DNA from: a virus | Virus record (IMG/VR): IMGVR_UViG_3300049825_000443 | Coordinates: 1 to 28,039 of that record | Reading direction: 5' to 3' (one strand) | DNA: 28,039 nucleotides | Shown: positions 13,294 through 19,437 of the stretch, one piece after another | How positions within the stretch are numbered: position 1 is the first letter of the stretch | How the letters are laid out: every line of letters begins with the position of its first letter | Translations under genes and position numbers: made by a program | Notes under the pieces: generated by a model | What the model was told of the DNA's origin: nothing | The model's input: the letters and a program-made list of their open reading frames with translations, nothing else | Databases searched by the model: none

Positions 13294-14312
13294 CGCGCGT
13301 CTCCCCGCTTGATGAAGCACACGGTGCTGGCGATCTTGTCTATCAGCTTGGCGTTCACCAGGTGGCGGCCCACGCCGTAGTCACGAATGGCAGGCAGCAG
13401 GCTTTCGGTCAGCGTGCGGGCCGATCCTTTGCAGTACGACCACAGGGCCTCCAGCACTTCATCAGTGGCCTGCACGGCCGTGTCATCGGCGTTCTTCAGG
13501 GTCTCCAGCGTCTTGCGCGCAATGTCGTCCATGTCATCGCGAGTGATGGTCTCAATGGTGGGCGGCCACATGCTCACCCGGCTGCGCAGCTCCTGAAACT
13601 GGCCTACCTCTGGCGCCAGCATGGCGTGCAGCTTCTGGTTTCCCGTCAGCACGATGCCGACGCCAGCCTTGTCACGCACCCGGCGCAGATAGTGCAGCGC
13701 GATGGGGCAGAGGTTGTTTGCTTCGTCGGCAATCACCAGGTACTGGGTGCCCTTGATAGCCTTCAGCACTGCGGCGAACTTGCGGCCCAGGCCAGACGGC
13801 GGGTCGATGCGTAGCTGCTGCAGCAGCTCGTCCAGCAGCCGCCCGGTGGTCATGTTGGGGTCGGCCTCCACCATCAGCGTGAGGGGGCGGCGCTTGAGGT
13901 ATTCCTTGAAGGTGCGCGTCTTGCCCACGCCCACGCTGGCAATCAGCACACCCAGGTTCGCTTCCTTGCGCATGCGGTCGCACACCACGAAGACCAGGCG
14001 GTGCACGCTGCCTTCGATGTAGCCGGGCGAGCCATGCTCCATGCGCTCGCCCTCAACGGCCAGCACCTGCAGCATCTGATCCAGCAGCGCCCCGGGCGGG
14101 CTGGGGTACTTCTGCGCCAGTATCTGGCTGATGGTGCTGCCGTTGATGCCGGCCTTACGGGCCAGCCAGGCGCGCGGCAGGTCCCGTTGCTGCAGCCATT
14201 CGGCCACGGCGCGGGCGCGCTCTAGGTCTTCCTGGCTGTAGGCGTAGCGTGGCAACGCGTCAGCCGGGTTCTCCGCCTGCGCTGCCTTGACTTGCCTGCC
14301 GATAGGGCTCAT
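13290..14312 (-). CDS. Transposition AAA+ ATPase (MuB-like)
   Basis: 340 aa. N-terminal HTH (~residues 40-70: DLPRAWLARKAGINGSTISQ) like MuB, then an AAA_22-type ATPase: Walker A 'ASVGVGKT' at 125-132, Walker B 'YLVIADEAN' at 191-199, followed by 'RDKAGVGIVLTGN' (sensor-1-like region) and a C-terminal helical lid. MuB binds DNA as ATP-dependent filaments, delivers target DNA to the transposase and gives target immunity. Start at ATG 14312 overlaps the transposase stop by 4 bp, so the two should be made together. Confidence 0.9.
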   Translation of the reverse strand: MSPIGRQVKAAQAENPADALPRYAYSQEDLERARAVAEWLQQRDLPRAWLARKAGINGSTISQILAQKYPSPPGALLDQMLQVLAVEGERMEHGSPGYIEGSVHRLVFVVCDRMRKEANLGVLIASVGVGKTRTFKEYLKRRPLTLMVEADPNMTTGRLLDELLQQLRIDPPSGLGRKFAAVLKAIKGTQYLVIADEANNLCPIALHYLRRVRDKAGVGIVLTGNQKLHAMLAPEVGQFQELRSRVSMWPPTIETITRDDMDDIARKTLETLKNADDTAVQATDEVLEALWSYCKGSARTLTESLLPAIRDYGVGRHLVNAKLIDKIASTVCFIKRGDAR

Positions 14313-16006
14313 GGCTTGTCTCCGTTGTAAGACGTGAGGTCGATGACGATGTCGTCGTCCGCCTCTGGCCTGGCCGCTTTGGCGGGCTTGTTCGGCTTGT
14401 CGGCGGGCGCCTGCAGGGCCAGGGCGGGCGCTGGCAAGCCCAGTTCGGCGCCGATCTCGAGGTCTTCGATGGCGCGGGCCTGGGCGTCGGCGTTGATGGG
14501 GTCGGCACGCCGGGCATGCGCTTCATCCAGCTTGCGTTCCAGGCGCTTGACCTGGCCTTTAAGCCGCCGGTCACGGCCCTCTTCAATGCGGCTGGTGGGA
14601 AGCACGCCGATCACGCTCACCAGCTTGGCTTCGCAGATCAGGCGACCCTTCTTGTCTTGCACCCACACCAGGCCGTCCTTGTGTAGGTCGTACTCCACCA
14701 TGACCTTCTTGCCGTCGTACAGCGCCAGGGCCTCGTGGTAGTAGAAGCGGTTGTGCAGGCGCACGGTCTGCCGGCCCACGGTGGCCTCTTGGCTGGGGCG
14801 CATCACAGCCTCGGCTTCCACGCCCACGGCCACGGGCACCAGCTCGGCCCACAACTGGGCCGGGGTGCGGCCGTCCAGCACGTCCATGGGCTCATTGAAG
14901 TAGCTGTCCATGAACTTGGCGAAGCTGCTCACGTAGTCCTGAAAGCTGGGCAGCTTGCGGCGGCCAGCCGCCAGTTCGGCGCTGAGGCGGCGGTTCACTT
15001 CCTCAGCCATGTCGTGGCCGCAGTAAACCTGGCCGCCGAAAAAGAACTTATCGTGCTTGTCGCGGCAGGTGCGAAAGAAGCGCTCTATCCAGCCCTTGCC
15101 GTGCGGGTTGCCAGGAAGCGCGCCGATCACGTCGATGTCGAACTTCTGGTACCAGCCGGTGCTCTCGTCGCTCAGCAGCTTGGCGCGGTAGCCGGCGCCA
15201 CGGTCTATGTACAGCCAGGCGGGCACATGGTCATGCCCCAGCATGGCCGCGCTCAGCGCGAAGAGCGTGCTGACGGCGCTTTCACTTTCGGTGAAGTACC
15301 AGCCCGGGACGTAGCGGCTCTTGATGTCGATGAAGCAGGTCAGCTCAGGGCGGAAGGGCTTGCCCGTGTTCGGGTGGGCCACGTAGCAGTCAACGGTGTG
15401 GCCGTCACCGGCGTAAATCTCGCCCACCAGCACTTCATCGAGGTTGCGGCGCTGGTACTTCTGGCGGGTCAGCCGGTGCAGGTGTTTGCCTATGCGCGCT
15501 GGGCTCTTCTCCCCCAGCGTGGCCGGCAGGGCCTTCAGGTAGCGCTTGACGCGGCTTTCCGTGGCGTCAGCGAAGCCTTCGCTGCGCAGGCGCCAGGCCA
15601 CGTCGGCGAAGCCGGGCTTGCTGGGGCTGTTGTACAGGGCCACGGCGCGCTGGTCCCACCCGTAGGCCAGGCCGTCTTTGCCGCAGCGCAGGTAGTCACC
15701 CAGCCAGCGCTTGAGGGTGGCGAAGCTGGGCGCGTCTTCGCCTTCCTTCGTGGCCGCGCTTTGCATGGCGTGGGCCACGGCGGGGTCCAGCAAGCCGGCA
15801 GCGGCCTGGGCCAGCACCAGGCGCACGGCGTTGTTCATGCTGGCGCCGCCCTCAACCAGCGCGGCCAGCGGGGCGATGACGGCCTGGCGCATTTCGGCCG
15901 CGCGGCGCTTGGCCTCGGTGGCTGCGTCCCAGGGCTTGGCACCCAGAGCCACGGGCAGGTCGCTCATCTGGCGAACGTCTGAGACGAGCTTGAGCAGGGC
16001 AACCAT
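14309..16006 (-). CDS. DDE transposase (MuA-like)
   Basis: 565 aa from ATG 16006; the frame is open to 16069, but that extension overlaps the upstream gene. Catalytic triad visible as D201 ('AGDGHTVD'), D268 ('LYIDRGAGY') and E308 ('GKGWIERFF') in an rve/RNase H-like core, preceded by helical DNA-binding parts (FATLKRWLGDYL; ESRVKRYLKALPA) and followed by a Mu-type beta-barrel (~400-470, with 'RPSQEATVGRQTVRLHNRFYYHEALALYDGKKVMVEYD' in pieces). The tail is helical and basic, then acidic. It catalyses strand transfer during integration and replicative transposition. Somewhat shorter than MuA (663 aa), as in BcepMu/B3-type relatives. Confidence 0.93.
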   Translation of the reverse strand: MVALLKLVSDVRQMSDLPVALGAKPWDAATEAKRRAAEMRQAVIAPLAALVEGGASMNNAVRLVLAQAAAGLLDPAVAHAMQSAATKEGEDAPSFATLKRWLGDYLRCGKDGLAYGWDQRAVALYNSPSKPGFADVAWRLRSEGFADATESRVKRYLKALPATLGEKSPARIGKHLHRLTRQKYQRRNLDEVLVGEIYAGDGHTVDCYVAHPNTGKPFRPELTCFIDIKSRYVPGWYFTESESAVSTLFALSAAMLGHDHVPAWLYIDRGAGYRAKLLSDESTGWYQKFDIDVIGALPGNPHGKGWIERFFRTCRDKHDKFFFGGQVYCGHDMAEEVNRRLSAELAAGRRKLPSFQDYVSSFAKFMDSYFNEPMDVLDGRTPAQLWAELVPVAVGVEAEAVMRPSQEATVGRQTVRLHNRFYYHEALALYDGKKVMVEYDLHKDGLVWVQDKKGRLICEAKLVSVIGVLPTSRIEEGRDRRLKGQVKRLERKLDEAHARRADPINADAQARAIEDLEIGAELGLPAPALALQAPADKPNKPAKAARPEADDDIVIDLTSYNGDKP

Positions 16007-16010
16007 ATCG

Positions 16011-16352
16011 TCACCCGGCGCTGCGCAGGCTGGCGCCCTGCGCCTGCCACAGCGCCTTGCCTTCTTCAACGCCCGCGAAGAAGGCGTCGGCCTGCGCCGT
16101 GCCCACGGTGAAGTGGCAGAGCAGCCGGCCGCCGGTGGCGCGGTGCATCAGCAGCGCGCGCACGCCTTCGCGGTATTCCACGCTGCGCGGGTTGCGTGGC
16201 CGGTCGAACGCGGCGGCCACCACGCGATCAACTTCGTCCGACACCAACACGGGCATAAGCTCCTGGTCGCAAGCCGGGCAGGCGTGCGGGCCGAAGCCGA
16301 TATGGCTGCTGACGTGGTCGCACCAGCCGCAGTAGTGCTTCAATGCGCTCAT
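16011..16352 (-). CDS. Small zinc-ribbon early phage protein
   Basis: 113 aa. N-terminal zinc ribbon: 'CGWCDHVSSHIGFGPHACPACDQEL' has two CxxC pairs. The C-terminal helical part 'EYREGVRALLMHRATGGRLLCHF' and 'GTAQADAFFAGVEEGKALW' is a pattern seen in many phage small proteins (Y-R-x-G-V-R-A...G-T-x-E-A-D-A-F-F-A-G-x-x-E-G). Function unknown. ATG 16352 overlaps the stop of the frame upstream (ATGA), and its stop is 4 bp from the transposase start. Confidence 0.65.
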   Translation of the reverse strand: MSALKHYCGWCDHVSSHIGFGPHACPACDQELMPVLVSDEVDRVVAAAFDRPRNPRSVEYREGVRALLMHRATGGRLLCHFTVGTAQADAFFAGVEEGKALWQAQGASLRSAG

Positions 16353-16936
16353 GACATCGAACCCTTCTTCTTTGCCACGGCAGGCAGGCGATATCGCAGA
16401 TCTGCAACGCGCTGCCCAAGCCGCTGTAGGCCGTGCCGAAATAGCCAGCCTGCGGCATTGGCTAGAGGCTGATACGCCCAGTGGTTGGACCTCTTGGCGC
16501 GCATGGCGAGAACAGCACTGCTCTGATATCGCAAGCTACGCATTTGCTCCCGCTGAGCCCGCGCGACGGGGCAAAAGCGGGCCGCCTGCCCACGGATGCG
16601 ACGCTCATCGGCCGGACTGCGTGAAAACCGACTCAACAAGTCCGACACACCGCAGCCGCATGTGTCTGGGTGTCTGGCAGATGTGTGCAGAAGCACTGCG
16701 CCTGCTTCGGCCGTTTGTGGAGCACGGGCTGCATCTGCCGATGCATCACGATGGGCCAGACCTGCTGTGCACGCTGTCGGGCATGCATCAGGAGCTGCAG
16801 GACGACTCGGACGCGGACTTGTGGTGGCCGCCGGACTGGGGGCCGAGTCCGTTTGAGTGAGGCCCTGCGACAGGGCCCAATCCAGGAACGCCCGACCGTT
16901 AGCCGCCACACGGGCACGAAGGGCAGCGGGGCTCAT
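16349..16936 (-). CDS. Uncertain early ORF, both ends coupled to neighbours
   Basis: 195-aa frame. Its ATG (16936) overlaps the upstream stop and its TGA (16349) overlaps the next start, both as ATGA, which is strong positional support. The first ~30 residues (AALRARVAANGRAFLDWALSQGL) and the last ~65 (LRYQSSAVLAM ... WLFRHGLQRLGQRVADLRYRLP) look protein-like. The middle has poor codon use and Pro/Ala-rich sequence, and there the opposite strand has better coding character (see the + ORF entry). It may be two genes or one with a low-constraint centre. No function is recognised. Confidence 0.4.
   Translation of the reverse strand: MSPAALRARVAANGRAFLDWALSQGLTQTDSAPSPAATTSPRPSRPAAPDACPTACTAGLAHRDASADAARAPQTAEAGAVLLHTSARHPDTCGCGVSDLLSRFSRSPADERRIRGQAARFCPVARAQREQMRSLRYQSSAVLAMRAKRSNHWAYQPLANAAGWLFRHGLQRLGQRVADLRYRLPAVAKKKGSMS
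16351..16860 (+). CDS. Possible counter-strand ORF with good codon use
   Basis: 169-aa frame antisense to the preceding entry. Its 3' third, from an internal ATG near 16681 (MCAEALRLLRPFVEHGLHLP, then DLLCTLSGMHQEL, ending DLWWPPDWGPSPFE), has high-GC third positions and reads as a natural protein: an amphipathic helix and a Trp-rich end. The 5' part is less convincing. A real plus-strand gene here would be the only one inside the leftward early operon. I recognise no family. Either this or the minus-strand frame may be real, possibly both. Confidence 0.3.
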   Translation: MTSNPSSLPRQAGDIADLQRAAQAAVGRAEIASLRHWLEADTPSGWTSWRAWREQHCSDIASYAFAPAEPARRGKSGPPAHGCDAHRPDCVKTDSTSPTHRSRMCLGVWQMCAEALRLLRPFVEHGLHLPMHHDGPDLLCTLSGMHQELQDDSDADLWWPPDWGPSPFE

Positions 16937-17976
16937 GCCTCACCCCCAGGCCGCTTGGTGGGCCGACCCACCTTCTGCGGGCGATCTTTGGCACGATCCC
17001 ATTCGCGCTGGGCTTTTTCCAGCTTCTCAGCCGCCACCAAGACCTTGAAGCGTTCGGCGGTCTCACCCAACTCCTGCGGGGTGAGGTAGCTCTGCGTCAC
17101 GGGCACGGGGTCGCGGCCGGGCAGCATGTCCAGGTAGCGAGCCATCACGCCGTCGATCTGCAGGCGCACGGCGGCCACGGCAGCCACGGCCAGGCGCAGA
17201 GTGGCGTCTGCGGCGTCGTGTTGAGCATCGACATGGAGAAACTCTTCCAGCTCTGCCCCGGCGGCGCGAAGGCCGTCCACAGCCAAGCCGGCCCGCTTTT
17301 GCATCACCATCACCTCGGCGCGCAGGTCGGCGATGGCGTGCGGAATTCCGTCCTGGCGGTCGGGCAGGCCGCGCTTGAGTTGCTTCTTCAGGGCGACGGC
17401 CTCGGCCTCGGACGTTTCAAGCTCGACCTCGGTGTCCTTGAGGCCACGTTCCAAATCCTTGATGCGCTGGCGTAGGGCGCGCACGCCGATCAGGTTGAGG
17501 TCGATCTCTTCGTCGTCGAGGGCAGCTTCCTGGGCGGCCGGGCTGGCGTTGGCGAGCATCACCACCTTGGTCTTGTGCAGCGCCATCACCTGCTCGCGCT
17601 GCTCCACGGGCAGGCGCGCAACCAGCGCCGCGCCGCGCATCAGTTCGGATGCGCGCTGCTTGGCCATGCCGCGCTCCTCCAGGATCGCGGCGAATGCCTC
17701 AGCCCCCACCTCGGCATGGACGCTGGACAACAGCAACCCAGCCTCGACCATGTGATGCGTGGCCATGTTGTAGGCCTGCATCGCGCGCTCAGTCCGAACG
17801 TTCGGACTGGCGGAAAGGTCGATCTGAAGCCAGACCGCCAGGTCGCGTCCGGACTGGTCGAATTGTTCAGTCCGAACGTTCGGACTGGGTGGGATTTCAA
17901 AACGGCCAACGTCGGCCGGCTTGGCCTGGACGGGCGCAAGGGCGGTGGTGGTTGACTTGGTGTTGGCCATGGTCAT
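16933..17976 (-). CDS. DUF3102-like early phage protein with palindrome-encoded insertions
   Basis: 347 aa (ATG 17976 overlaps the upstream stop; ATG 17970 also possible). Residues ~65-130 ('ATHHMVEAGLLLSSVHAEV', 'FAAILEERGMAKQRASELMRGAALVARLP') match the DUF3102 pattern of a helical domain in which a long helix precedes a small HTH-like part. Residues ~155-200 form a predicted coiled coil (RALRQRIKDLERGLKDTEVEL), and the C-terminus is basic. Near the N-terminus the peptide SPNVRTE occurs twice (~31-37 and ~57-63), each encoded by a perfect 20-bp palindrome. A role in regulation or DNA partition is possible but unproven. Confidence 0.6.
   Translation of the reverse strand: MTMANTKSTTTALAPVQAKPADVGRFEIPPSPNVRTEQFDQSGRDLAVWLQIDLSASPNVRTERAMQAYNMATHHMVEAGLLLSSVHAEVGAEAFAAILEERGMAKQRASELMRGAALVARLPVEQREQVMALHKTKVVMLANASPAAQEAALDDEEIDLNLIGVRALRQRIKDLERGLKDTEVELETSEAEAVALKKQLKRGLPDRQDGIPHAIADLRAEVMVMQKRAGLAVDGLRAAGAELEEFLHVDAQHDAADATLRLAVAAVAAVRLQIDGVMARYLDMLPGRDPVPVTQSYLTPQELGETAERFKVLVAAEKLEKAQREWDRAKDRPQKVGRPTKRPGGEA
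17790..17809. repeat. Perfect 20-bp palindrome, copy 1
   Basis: CAGTCCGAACGTTCGGACTG, fully self-complementary, lies inside the DUF3102-like coding sequence and is read there as part of SPNVRTE. An identical copy lies 78 bp away at 17868-17887. I found no third full copy. Long perfect symmetry inside a gene, repeated at 26 codons, suggests a protein-binding site or a mobile palindromic element rather than chance. Confidence 0.85.
17868..17887. repeat. Perfect 20-bp palindrome, copy 2
   Basis: Identical to the copy at 17790-17809 (CAGTCCGAACGTTCGGACTG) and in the same reading frame, again encoding SPNVRTE. A shorter related symmetric octamer, GTCCGGAC, lies between them at about 17847-17854. 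Both copies lie within 250-430 bp of the early promoter at 18240-18268. Confidence 0.85.
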
Positions 17977-18215
17977 CCCCGCTTGATGCCAAGCGCGACG
18001 GCAGCGCGATGGCCTTCACCGAAAAGACCCTTGTTCACCCCGCGGATAACTTCGGAGACGGTGCGGTAGTTCAGCCCTTGCTTCTTGGCAAATTCCTTCA
18101 GCGTCATGCCTTTTTCGTAGACACGCGCCTTCGCTTGATCCGGGGTGAGCGGGGCTGCGTTCGTTGACCTGGCTGCGTGCTGCGTTCTCAAGTGCGCTAC
18201 TCCTATGTCTGTCAT
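17973..18215 (-). CDS. BcepMu gp16-like / Ner-like DNA-binding protein
   Basis: 80 aa from ATG 18215; the frame is open further but crosses the promoter. 'LTPDQAKARVYEKGMTLKEFAKKQGL' followed by 'NYRTVSEVIRGVNKGLFGEGHRAAVALGIK' is the pattern of the BcepMu gp16 family (P-E-Q-x-K-x-x-x-x-x-x-G-x-T-x-x-E-W-A, then a recognition helix, G-x-x-K-x-x-x-G-x-x-H-x-x-A-V-x-L-G). It is the first gene of the leftward early operon, opposite the repressor, where Mu has ner. It probably negatively regulates early transcription or the repressor promoter. It overlaps the next gene by 4 bp. Confidence 0.8.
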   Translation of the reverse strand: MTDIGVAHLRTQHAARSTNAAPLTPDQAKARVYEKGMTLKEFAKKQGLNYRTVSEVIRGVNKGLFGEGHRAAVALGIKRG

Positions 18216-18239
18216 TACGCGTTTAATTACCTGCGATGG

Positions 18240-18268
18240 ACTATAGGGCAACGAAACGGCACTTGCAA
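18240..18268 (-). promoter_or_regulatory. Early promoter (leftward), sigma-70 type
   Basis: On the minus strand TTGCAA (18268-18263), a 17-bp spacer, then TATAGT (18245-18240). The expected start is near 18233, about 18 nt ahead of the ATG at 18215. It is the best promoter match in the divergent region and would drive the whole early operon, including the transposition genes and, further on, intI, gemA and mor. Confidence 0.65.
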
Positions 18269-18357
18269 TAGATGAAGCAAAAAAGGAGCGCAACAAACGC
18301 ACACTCGAACATCATCAATCCGGCTCTTTAGGGGGTGGTCTCCTGGGTTGAACGCCT

Positions 18358-18385: not shown

Positions 18386-18417
18386 TCACTGTGCATAGGT
18401 CGCTAAGTGCCTTCTCC

Positions 18418-19068
18418 ATGTCAACCAACGTGCTAATCGGCCAGCGCTTGTGCGCTGAAAGGCAACGTCTGCGACTCACTCAGGTGGAGTTGGCAGAGAC
18501 TGCGCACGTCAGCAAGACATCGCAGATCAACTACGAATCGGGCAGGCGATCACCTGACGCCGGGTATCTAGCCGCGGTGGCAGCCATTGGGGTGGATGTG
18601 CTGTACGTGGTGACAGGGCGAGCGAGCGCACCTCTGCCAGTGACCAGCAGCACGGTCACAATTCCGCGCCTGGACGGCCGCGCCTGGTCAACCAGCCCCG
18701 CAGTGAACGAGGAGCGCGCCGCCTACAACGTCGACGCCCCTTGCGTCAGCGCTGCCTGGCTGGCAGCGCGCCAACTTGCGCCCGCACAGGTGCGCTCTGT
18801 CAAGGTTGTCGGAACCTCGATGCAGGGCGTGCTGGCCGATGGTGACCTGGTGCTGATGGATCAGTCAGACACCAAGCCGCGGAGCGGCTACGTGTATGGG
18901 ATCCGACAGGGCGAAGAGCTGCTCATCAAGTACTGCGAGCAGCTACCTGGTGGGGTGCTGCGCATCAGCAGCGCCAACCCCGCCTTTGCACCCTACGATG
19001 TTGACCTGACAAAGAACGACGACTTCGCCATCATCGGACGCGTGGTGGCGTCGATGCACGATTGGTAG
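18418..19068 (+). CDS. Phage repressor, HTH plus S24 peptidase-like domain
   Basis: 216 aa from ATG 18418; the frame begins 9 codons earlier without support. HTH_3 at ~5-62 (IGQRLCAERQRLRLTQVELAE, then HVSKTSQINYESGRRSPD). The C-terminal S24/LexA-like domain has 'VVGTSMQGVLADGDLVLMD' with candidate nucleophile S134 and 'ELLIKYCEQ' with general base K171. This is the architecture of CI/C2-type repressors that hold lysogeny and can be inactivated by RecA-stimulated self-cleavage. I see no obvious Ala-Gly cleavage bond in the linker, so SOS cleavage is uncertain. Divergent from the early operon; no other regulator is seen here. Confidence 0.88.
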   Translation: MSTNVLIGQRLCAERQRLRLTQVELAETAHVSKTSQINYESGRRSPDAGYLAAVAAIGVDVLYVVTGRASAPLPVTSSTVTIPRLDGRAWSTSPAVNEERAAYNVDAPCVSAAWLAARQLAPAQVRSVKVVGTSMQGVLADGDLVLMDQSDTKPRSGYVYGIRQGEELLIKYCEQLPGGVLRISSANPAFAPYDVDLTKNDDFAIIGRVVASMHDW

Positions 19069-19086: not shown

Positions 19087-19437
19087 ATGAACAGCAGACT
19101 CTGGCTGACGACACTGGCACTTTGGAGCTTCACCACTGCACAGGCTCAAGACTTCGAATCGGTTCGAAGTAAAGCGCTTGCTGGCGACTACATCGCCCAG
19201 CGGAACCTCGCTTACGGATACAGCTCAGCGCCATATAGGGGCCAGGATAGGAACGAGTTGCTCGCCTGTGCTTGGCGGCATGTGATCGTCCGATCAGGAA
19301 ACGAACGAGTCGATCAAACGGACATCAACAACCTTCAGGTGTTTTGCGGGCAGCTTGACGCCACCCAGGGCGCTGCCGCAATGGCCCAGGCCAAGAGCTT
19401 ATATCGGCGCGTCTACTCGCGGGAAATGGGCCCTTAG
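19087..19437 (+). CDS. Exported Sel1-repeat-like protein
   Basis: 116 aa with a clear Sec signal peptide: hydrophobic LWLTTLALWSFTT then AQA|Q near residue 20. The mature part, 'FESVRSKALAGDYIAQRNLAYGYSSAPYRG', 'LLACAWRHVIV', ends with 'AMAQAKSLYRRVY'; A-x-x-G-D-x-x-A-Q-x-N-L-A-x-x-Y is a Sel1/TPR-like helical repeat. Two Cys may form a disulfide. It is likely periplasmic. It sits just downstream of the repressor, where phages carry lysogenic-conversion genes, and could be co-transcribed with it (18-bp gap). Its role for phage or host is unknown. Confidence 0.65.
   Translation: MNSRLWLTTLALWSFTTAQAQDFESVRSKALAGDYIAQRNLAYGYSSAPYRGQDRNELLACAWRHVIVRSGNERVDQTDINNLQVFCGQLDATQGAAAMAQAKSLYRRVYSREMGP

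Follow-up and report, generated by a model that had tools for sequence, protein, structure and literature searches.

Palindromes in and beside DUF3102-type genes as predicted binding sites of the proteins that these genes encode

Two identical 20-bp palindromes within a DUF3102-type phage gene, like the diverse palindromes associated with the same gene in its relatives, are very probably sites on double-stranded DNA that are bound by the product of their host gene, a prediction drawn from correlations between sequences and from structural models. On the best reading of these data, they would be in-gene operators, or parS-like sites, read by the encoded protein with a hypervariable and co-evolving specificity. 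The protein would consist of a ParB/KorB-like HTH domain followed by a coiled coil, and we infer that it dimerises and binds a 20–28-bp dyad located within or just before its own gene.

The window (the whole stretch of 28,039 nucleotides that was analysed) is an IMG/VR virus record; among named phages, Curvibacter phage TJ1 and Burkholderia phage KS10 come closest to it. The palindromes lie in the early region of a transposable, BcepMu/KS10-like phage, as indicated by this kinship and by the gp16-like HTH, CI-like repressor and Mu-type transposase genes neighbouring the gene of interest (Table 1). An exact scan confirmed what the initial annotation had described, namely two copies of CAGTCCGAACGTTCGGACTG in the same frame, each encoding SPNVRTE. 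Their identity extends to 22 bp, with a T and a G flanking the palindrome, and the pair forms the longest perfect palindromes anywhere in the window, where no further match was found with up to 3 mismatches (none being expected from 100 shuffles), nor a third copy in a script search allowing up to 6 mismatches. A near-perfect palindrome of another sequence, ACTTCGAATCGGTTCGAAGT, lies at 19151–19170, in the early part of ORF 19087–19437.

Table 1. Features of the window around the two palindromes.
Feature	Position	Strand	Basis
Palindromic site 1 (SPNVRTE, residues 31–37)	17868..17887	-	sequence scan
Palindromic site 2 (SPNVRTE, residues 57–63; identical to site 1, 78 bp away)	17790..17809	-	sequence scan
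DUF3102-type protein, 347 aa; likely reader of the palindromes	16933..17976	-	homology, profile comparison
HTH; model helices 92–101 and 106–121; proposed base readers Q107, S110, E111 (alignment columns 17, 20, 21)	17614..17703	-	
Upstream HTH gene, phrog_925, BcepMu gp16-like; first in early operon	17973..18302	-	
Divergent CI-like repressor (HTH + peptidase S24)	18391..19068	+	
Mu-type transposase, downstream of the DUF3102-type gene, same direction	14309..16069	-	

The encoded protein is homologous to QDB70120.1 of TJ1 and to gp15 of KS10. Taken alone, it had no DUF3102 (PF11300) match in a Pfam scan; its proposed DUF3102-like identity was established by profile–profile comparison, hhalign of a window, TJ1 and KS10 profile against the DUF3102 profile giving a probability of 97.9 (E 3e-13). 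Likewise, the window protein as sole query retrieved no relatives from viral contigs, for which an alignment query was required, and no tblastn match among plasmids. All 20 members of the A9 set match PF11300, and a PF11300 search of 398 Pseudomonadota genomes yielded a match in 22, with a palindrome directly past the HTH at many loci. Several of 14 plasmid and phage records (Cyanobacteria, Alphaproteobacteria, a Streptococcus phage) share this post-HTH palindrome, although not all were positive, and a palindrome was also seen by the DUF3102 genes of viral loci retrieved in three additional alignment scans (171 loci). Of 5426 complete E. coli genomes, 626 carry a DUF3102 homologue; a common E. 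coli form of the prophage, as in E. coli E41-1 (L293 1543–1860), has an extra 318-bp gene separating DUF3102 from the transposase. In the open-access literature (most subscription papers falling outside this scope), DUF3102 was found named in only three papers, each time incidentally, and work on in-gene operators and ParB specificity yielded no description of its palindromic site. It is entered next to an HTH protein and Gam in the available tables of one E. coli paper, and the accessible part of the KS10 paper makes no mention of a palindromic site.

The AlphaFold model of the window protein and a model of a classical DUF3102 protein reached pLDDT values of 86.7 and 93.0, respectively, and neither had a Foldseek match at E<=0.001. 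In VIA-align, the leading rows were the DNA-binding domains of ParB, Noc, KorB and Spo0J, with SopB lower and Raf1 interspersed at similar scores. The Z scores of the window model were 7.8 (Noc), 7.3 (ParB) and 6.8 (KorB), and that of the classical model 7.4 (ParB-parS), all below 8 and thus in the weak zone for helical folds; beneath its leaders, the rows of the classical model drop from 4.5 (SopB) to 3.7. Given these values, the resemblance of the predicted structures to ParB/KorB/Noc DNA-binding domains is support, not proof. Strands are absent from the window model, whose first 40 residues form no element, hence no N-terminal CTP-binding ParB/Srx domain, and a Pfam scan of eight homologues, including the window protein, returned no ParB-type match; a sequence search of solved structures gave nothing useful. 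No ParA ATPase partner was seen among the seven window proteins scanned.

In relatives, a palindrome is found in or beside the same gene, with wholly different letters and its symmetry kept. In the TJ1 gene the palindrome is CAAATGTGCGTACGTCCGCACATTTG, nearly perfect, of another sequence and in another frame than that of the window, and in two alignment-based scans, covering 7 genome and 15 viral loci, most loci had a palindrome of their own, such as CAAATCCCCGAACGTTCGGGGATTTG, CAAATATCCGAACGTTCGGATATTTG or AAACTTGCGGACGTCCGCAAGTTT. The closest relative with the layout of the window (L012, protein 54% identical) harbors two identical copies of CAGTCCGGACGTCCGGACTG, also 78 bp apart, each differing from those of the window by one and the same compensating pair. 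For KS10, a degenerate 23-nt version was all that could be recognised by eye, and the palindrome listing contained none. These changes in compensating pairs and differences in frame do not fit the conservation of SPNVRTE through synonymous codons, the pattern that the initial annotation had named as contrary to its proposal.

The association was quantified on 249 loci, grouped into 132 clusters at 80% identity and reduced to 124 representatives, nine mis-framed or truncated loci having been dropped by eye before the enrichment (132 clusters to 124) and centre-symmetry tests; in some loci, the palindrome was itself picked by eye. An arm score of at least 9 in the gene region was reached in 70 of the 124 non-redundant representatives, versus 2.9% of shuffles and 20 of 239 flanking windows, while 40 of the 124 have no palindrome of score >=8 there. 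Most distinct palindromes of score >=9 (79) lie at most 60 residues past the HG.F motif, the others being located N-terminal to this motif (17), upstream of the ORF (19), further C-terminal (3) or left unplaced (7), and those of even length are spread over the three codon phases (71/11/3). In one large group, the palindrome adjoins the ORF start in an operator-like position. The 20-bp site of the window is shorter than most of those of its relatives, and lacks AAAT ends. No palindrome copy was found beyond the DUF3102 gene in TJ1, in plasmid pB146-3 or in the window.

Other palindromes were observed along the way. In the IMG/VR phage record G1466, where the DUF3102 gene near 6.3 kb is devoid of any palindrome of score >=8, a perfect palindrome, CCAAATGCGCGAACGTTCGCGCATTTGG, lies between tail genes (L308 11787–11814), with a weaker similar site at L307 13700–13723; these may be distal binding sites or terminators and, being kilobases off, suggest that the palindrome may not always be in cis to the DUF3102 gene. 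A 38-bp palindrome with the same CAAAT...ATTTG ends (L050 2253–2278) also sits between tail genes, in another phage fragment and at the same intergenic spot as in L061, and no DUF3102 match was found in this 6.3-kb record. Upstream of the early operon, L005 (3506–3523), L014 (3506–3523) and L020 (3436–3453) carry the perfect palindrome AACAGTTAATTAACTGTT, perhaps the operator of a CI-type repressor. Lastly, CCGTAACCTGAGGCCTCAGGTTACGG, or a one-mismatch form of it, occurs some 2 kb ahead of the DUF3102 gene in L007 (1918–1943) and L010 (2018–2043), both Pandoraea genomes, as well as in L023 (1918–1943) and L025 (2018–2043), and is perhaps a terminator.

Could the palindromes be mobile elements that tolerate translation, of the kind of the Rickettsia RPE? 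The two identical in-frame copies of the window, and the varying position of the palindrome within the gene among relatives, would fit such an origin. Against it, the exact 20-mer had no match in either contig collection, IMG/VR or GTDB (a scan that may pass over close duplicates of the window record), each lineage has a sequence of its own, almost always tied to DUF3102 genes, and the letters are predicted by the HTH. The same sequence in unrelated genes, as for a Rickettsia-type element, was not found, and this origin appears extremely unlikely. Of the two possibilities raised by the initial annotation, an operator or partition-type site and a mobile element, the former gains ground and the latter is disfavored.

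A second question is whether selection acts on DNA or on RNA. An early-transcript mRNA hairpin could govern translation or decay, compensating changes preserving its stem, and the maintenance of the stem while the sequence varies would agree with this, as would a centre spacer that is unlike between groups. However, the putative loop is itself symmetric: although the arms were searched with the central 4 or 5 bases left unscored, 64 of 81 central pairs and 71 of 81 next pairs are complementary in even sites (25% expected), including those with the non-ACGT centres CCGG, CATG, TCGA, GCGC and TTAA, and the same holds for 13/21 and 17/21 pairs in odd sites. In addition, G-U pairs are not enriched among imperfect arm pairs of the coding strand (1 G-U versus 6 A-C; 19 versus 31 in a second count), and the stem bases track residues of the recognition helix, which a hairpin does not foresee. 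A hairpin is thus very improbable, and a protein of twofold symmetry on DNA fits better than a stem-loop, given the symmetric centre and the lack of G-U bias. Since position and frame vary and the centre is symmetric, the palindromes point to the DNA site of a dimer rather than to a peptide or an mRNA hairpin. An ACGT core was also considered as an essential element, and rejected, since members from Pseudomonadota, Cyanobacteria and Firmicutes differ from it at the centre.

The evidence pointing to the encoded protein itself comes from the covariation of site letters with residues of its recognition helix, as would be expected of an autoregulatory HTH protein and its operator. Half-site positions run from 1 to 12, starting at the outer AAAT and ending at the centre, and HTH residues are counted beginning with the H of HG.F; 11 loci whose best palindrome was not of the family type were dropped by eye before the association steps, and four more from the association sets (131 rows reduced to 127, 89 of them non-redundant). 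Across 240 alignable columns tested against half-site bases 5–9 (column statistics, not tree-based), the two top associations link base 9 to residue 21 (z 16.2) and base 6 to residue 20 (z 11.7), and residue 17 is associated with base 7 (z 7.8). These columns have the i, i+3, i+4 spacing of one helix face, and belong to the second HTH helix. Columns S33, D34, S37 and D38 score too, but are encoded by the palindrome itself in most members, while the scores of T52 and H186 against base 9 (z 7.6–8.0) are attributed at least partly to shared ancestry. In the 89 non-redundant loci, the pairings are R17-G7 (36/37) and Q17-C7 (9/10), R20-C5G6 (12/15) and Q20-C6 (19/21), and R21-C9 (45/48), E21-G9 (12/13) and N21-A9 (7/7). 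The site of the window conforms to this code through Q17-C7 and E21-G9.

The code holds between distant proteins. Below 30% identity, half-site similarity rises from 0.25 to 0.36, 0.53 and 0.70 with 0, 1, 2 and 3 shared residues; for pairs below 35% identity, the gain is 0.310, versus a maximum of 0.151 among 300 control column triplets. It also persists when each 40%-identity cluster contributes a single representative (n=21), a test from which L024, in another register and fitting E21-G9 if anchored on AAAT, was left out. Ten new DUF3102 loci (L294–L303) served as a test, four of them with an AAA-ended palindrome: L300 and L301 obey the applicable rules, L298 violates N21-A9, and L303 fits in one register only. 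Eight E. coli alleles each have a palindrome at nt 346–353 of the gene and obey 19 of 19 applicable rules, as judged by eye, several of them being equal or close to rule-deriving loci. Compared with SK1144 in 60-nt windows, helix and palindrome are the least conserved stretch of these alleles (43–74% identical), and the closest alleles are 78–100% identical outside it. Site and putative reading part of the protein thus change together, so that sequence alone allows a DNA-reading code to be inferred. Among the candidate readers initially listed, i.e. the gp16-like protein, the repressor and the encoded protein, the last named is probably the right one.

The sites could nevertheless serve as operators for another phage protein, be it the CI-like repressor, the gp16-like HTH protein or, as an enhancer, the transposase. 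The internal enhancer of Mu is located near its operators, and the placement of the window sites, which separate the early promoter region from the transposase, recalls this arrangement. On the other hand, DUF3102 genes of Firmicutes phages, and of plasmids from Cyanobacteria and Alphaproteobacteria, also come with the palindrome, its letters follow the DUF3102 helix residues, and TJ1-like relatives have separate palindromes upstream of their early operon, making another reader improbable.

If the encoded protein is the reader, what would its binding achieve? In the window, two bound dimers would separate the transposase genes from the early promoter region, as a roadblock or an autoregulatory site. 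There is about an even chance that the bound protein exerts such an effect on the early operon of its gene, upstream of the transposase genes, or seeds a parS-like complex, and that mobile elements sharing hosts co-diversify helix and site, thus avoiding cross-talk. The chief alternative to an operator would be a role like that of parS: as a sub-case overlapping the best explanation, the DUF3102 protein may read the site for DNA partition, packaging or replication. This reading is less likely than not; to it the predicted ParB/Noc/KorB-like domain lends weight, together with the record in which a DUF3102 gene coexists with similar palindromes kilobases away, and the annotated AAA ATPase gene near the DUF3102 gene of pB146-3; the lack of extra-genic copies in TJ1, pB146-3 and the window, and the operator-like site at the ORF start of one large group, argue against it.

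More tentatively, and with slightly less than an even chance, DUF3102 genes may be self-contained specificity cassettes, forming a heteroimmunity- or incompatibility-like system based on a ParB-like family devoid of the CTPase clamp, in which helix and site co-diversify among phages, plasmids and prophages that share hosts. As one gene carries both the reading helix and the site, recombination could not easily part lock and key. Each protein bringing its own site, the family would represent a natural set of matched DNA-binding proteins and targets and, if the cassette reading is true, a natural library for reading the protein–DNA code. Such pairs would open the evolution of DNA-binding specificity to direct testing, and could yield orthogonal DNA tags or repressors. 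They also offer a lead on the function of a large, unstudied family, whose members occur in phages and plasmids from several bacterial phyla, and suggest a second specificity system in Mu-like prophages beside the known repressor.

Several known systems share part of these features. In B. subtilis, parS lies within spo0J, the gene of its own reader, a situation similar to that proposed here, but this is a single fixed site, in contrast to the hypervariable, family-wide DUF3102 pair. More generally, parS is nearly invariant, whereas the DUF3102 site is hypervariable, and KorB has many dispersed operators, unlike a DUF3102 protein, whose gene has one or two sites. As with ParB-parS and Noc-NBS, to which both DUF3102 models are closest in predicted fold, an HTH domain would read a palindrome; unlike ParB and Noc, the window model lacks the N-terminal alpha/beta CTPase domain, and no ParA partner was identified. 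According to the available sections of one study, the specificity of ParB and Noc is shifted by few residues, R173 contacting G1, Q173 A1, and R201 C6:G-6 (PMC7383237), and the R173/Q173 alternative parallels R17/Q17 in DUF3102-type proteins. KorB of RK2, a ParB-like HTH repressor and a structural neighbour of the DUF3102 models, is described in the accessible text as a clamp that slides on DNA and turns into a repressor to achieve long-range silencing (PMC11790492). In mycobacteriophages, as far as the consulted portion of the source goes, prophages carry up to 30 stoperators, mostly in one orientation and for the most part not associated with promoters, which block elongation, and repressor and stoperator sequences diverge jointly between related phages (PMC6550527). 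The DUF3102 site and protein are unrelated to these numerous stoperators and their repressor, but resemble mycobacteriophage heteroimmunity in that protein and site diverge jointly within the family.
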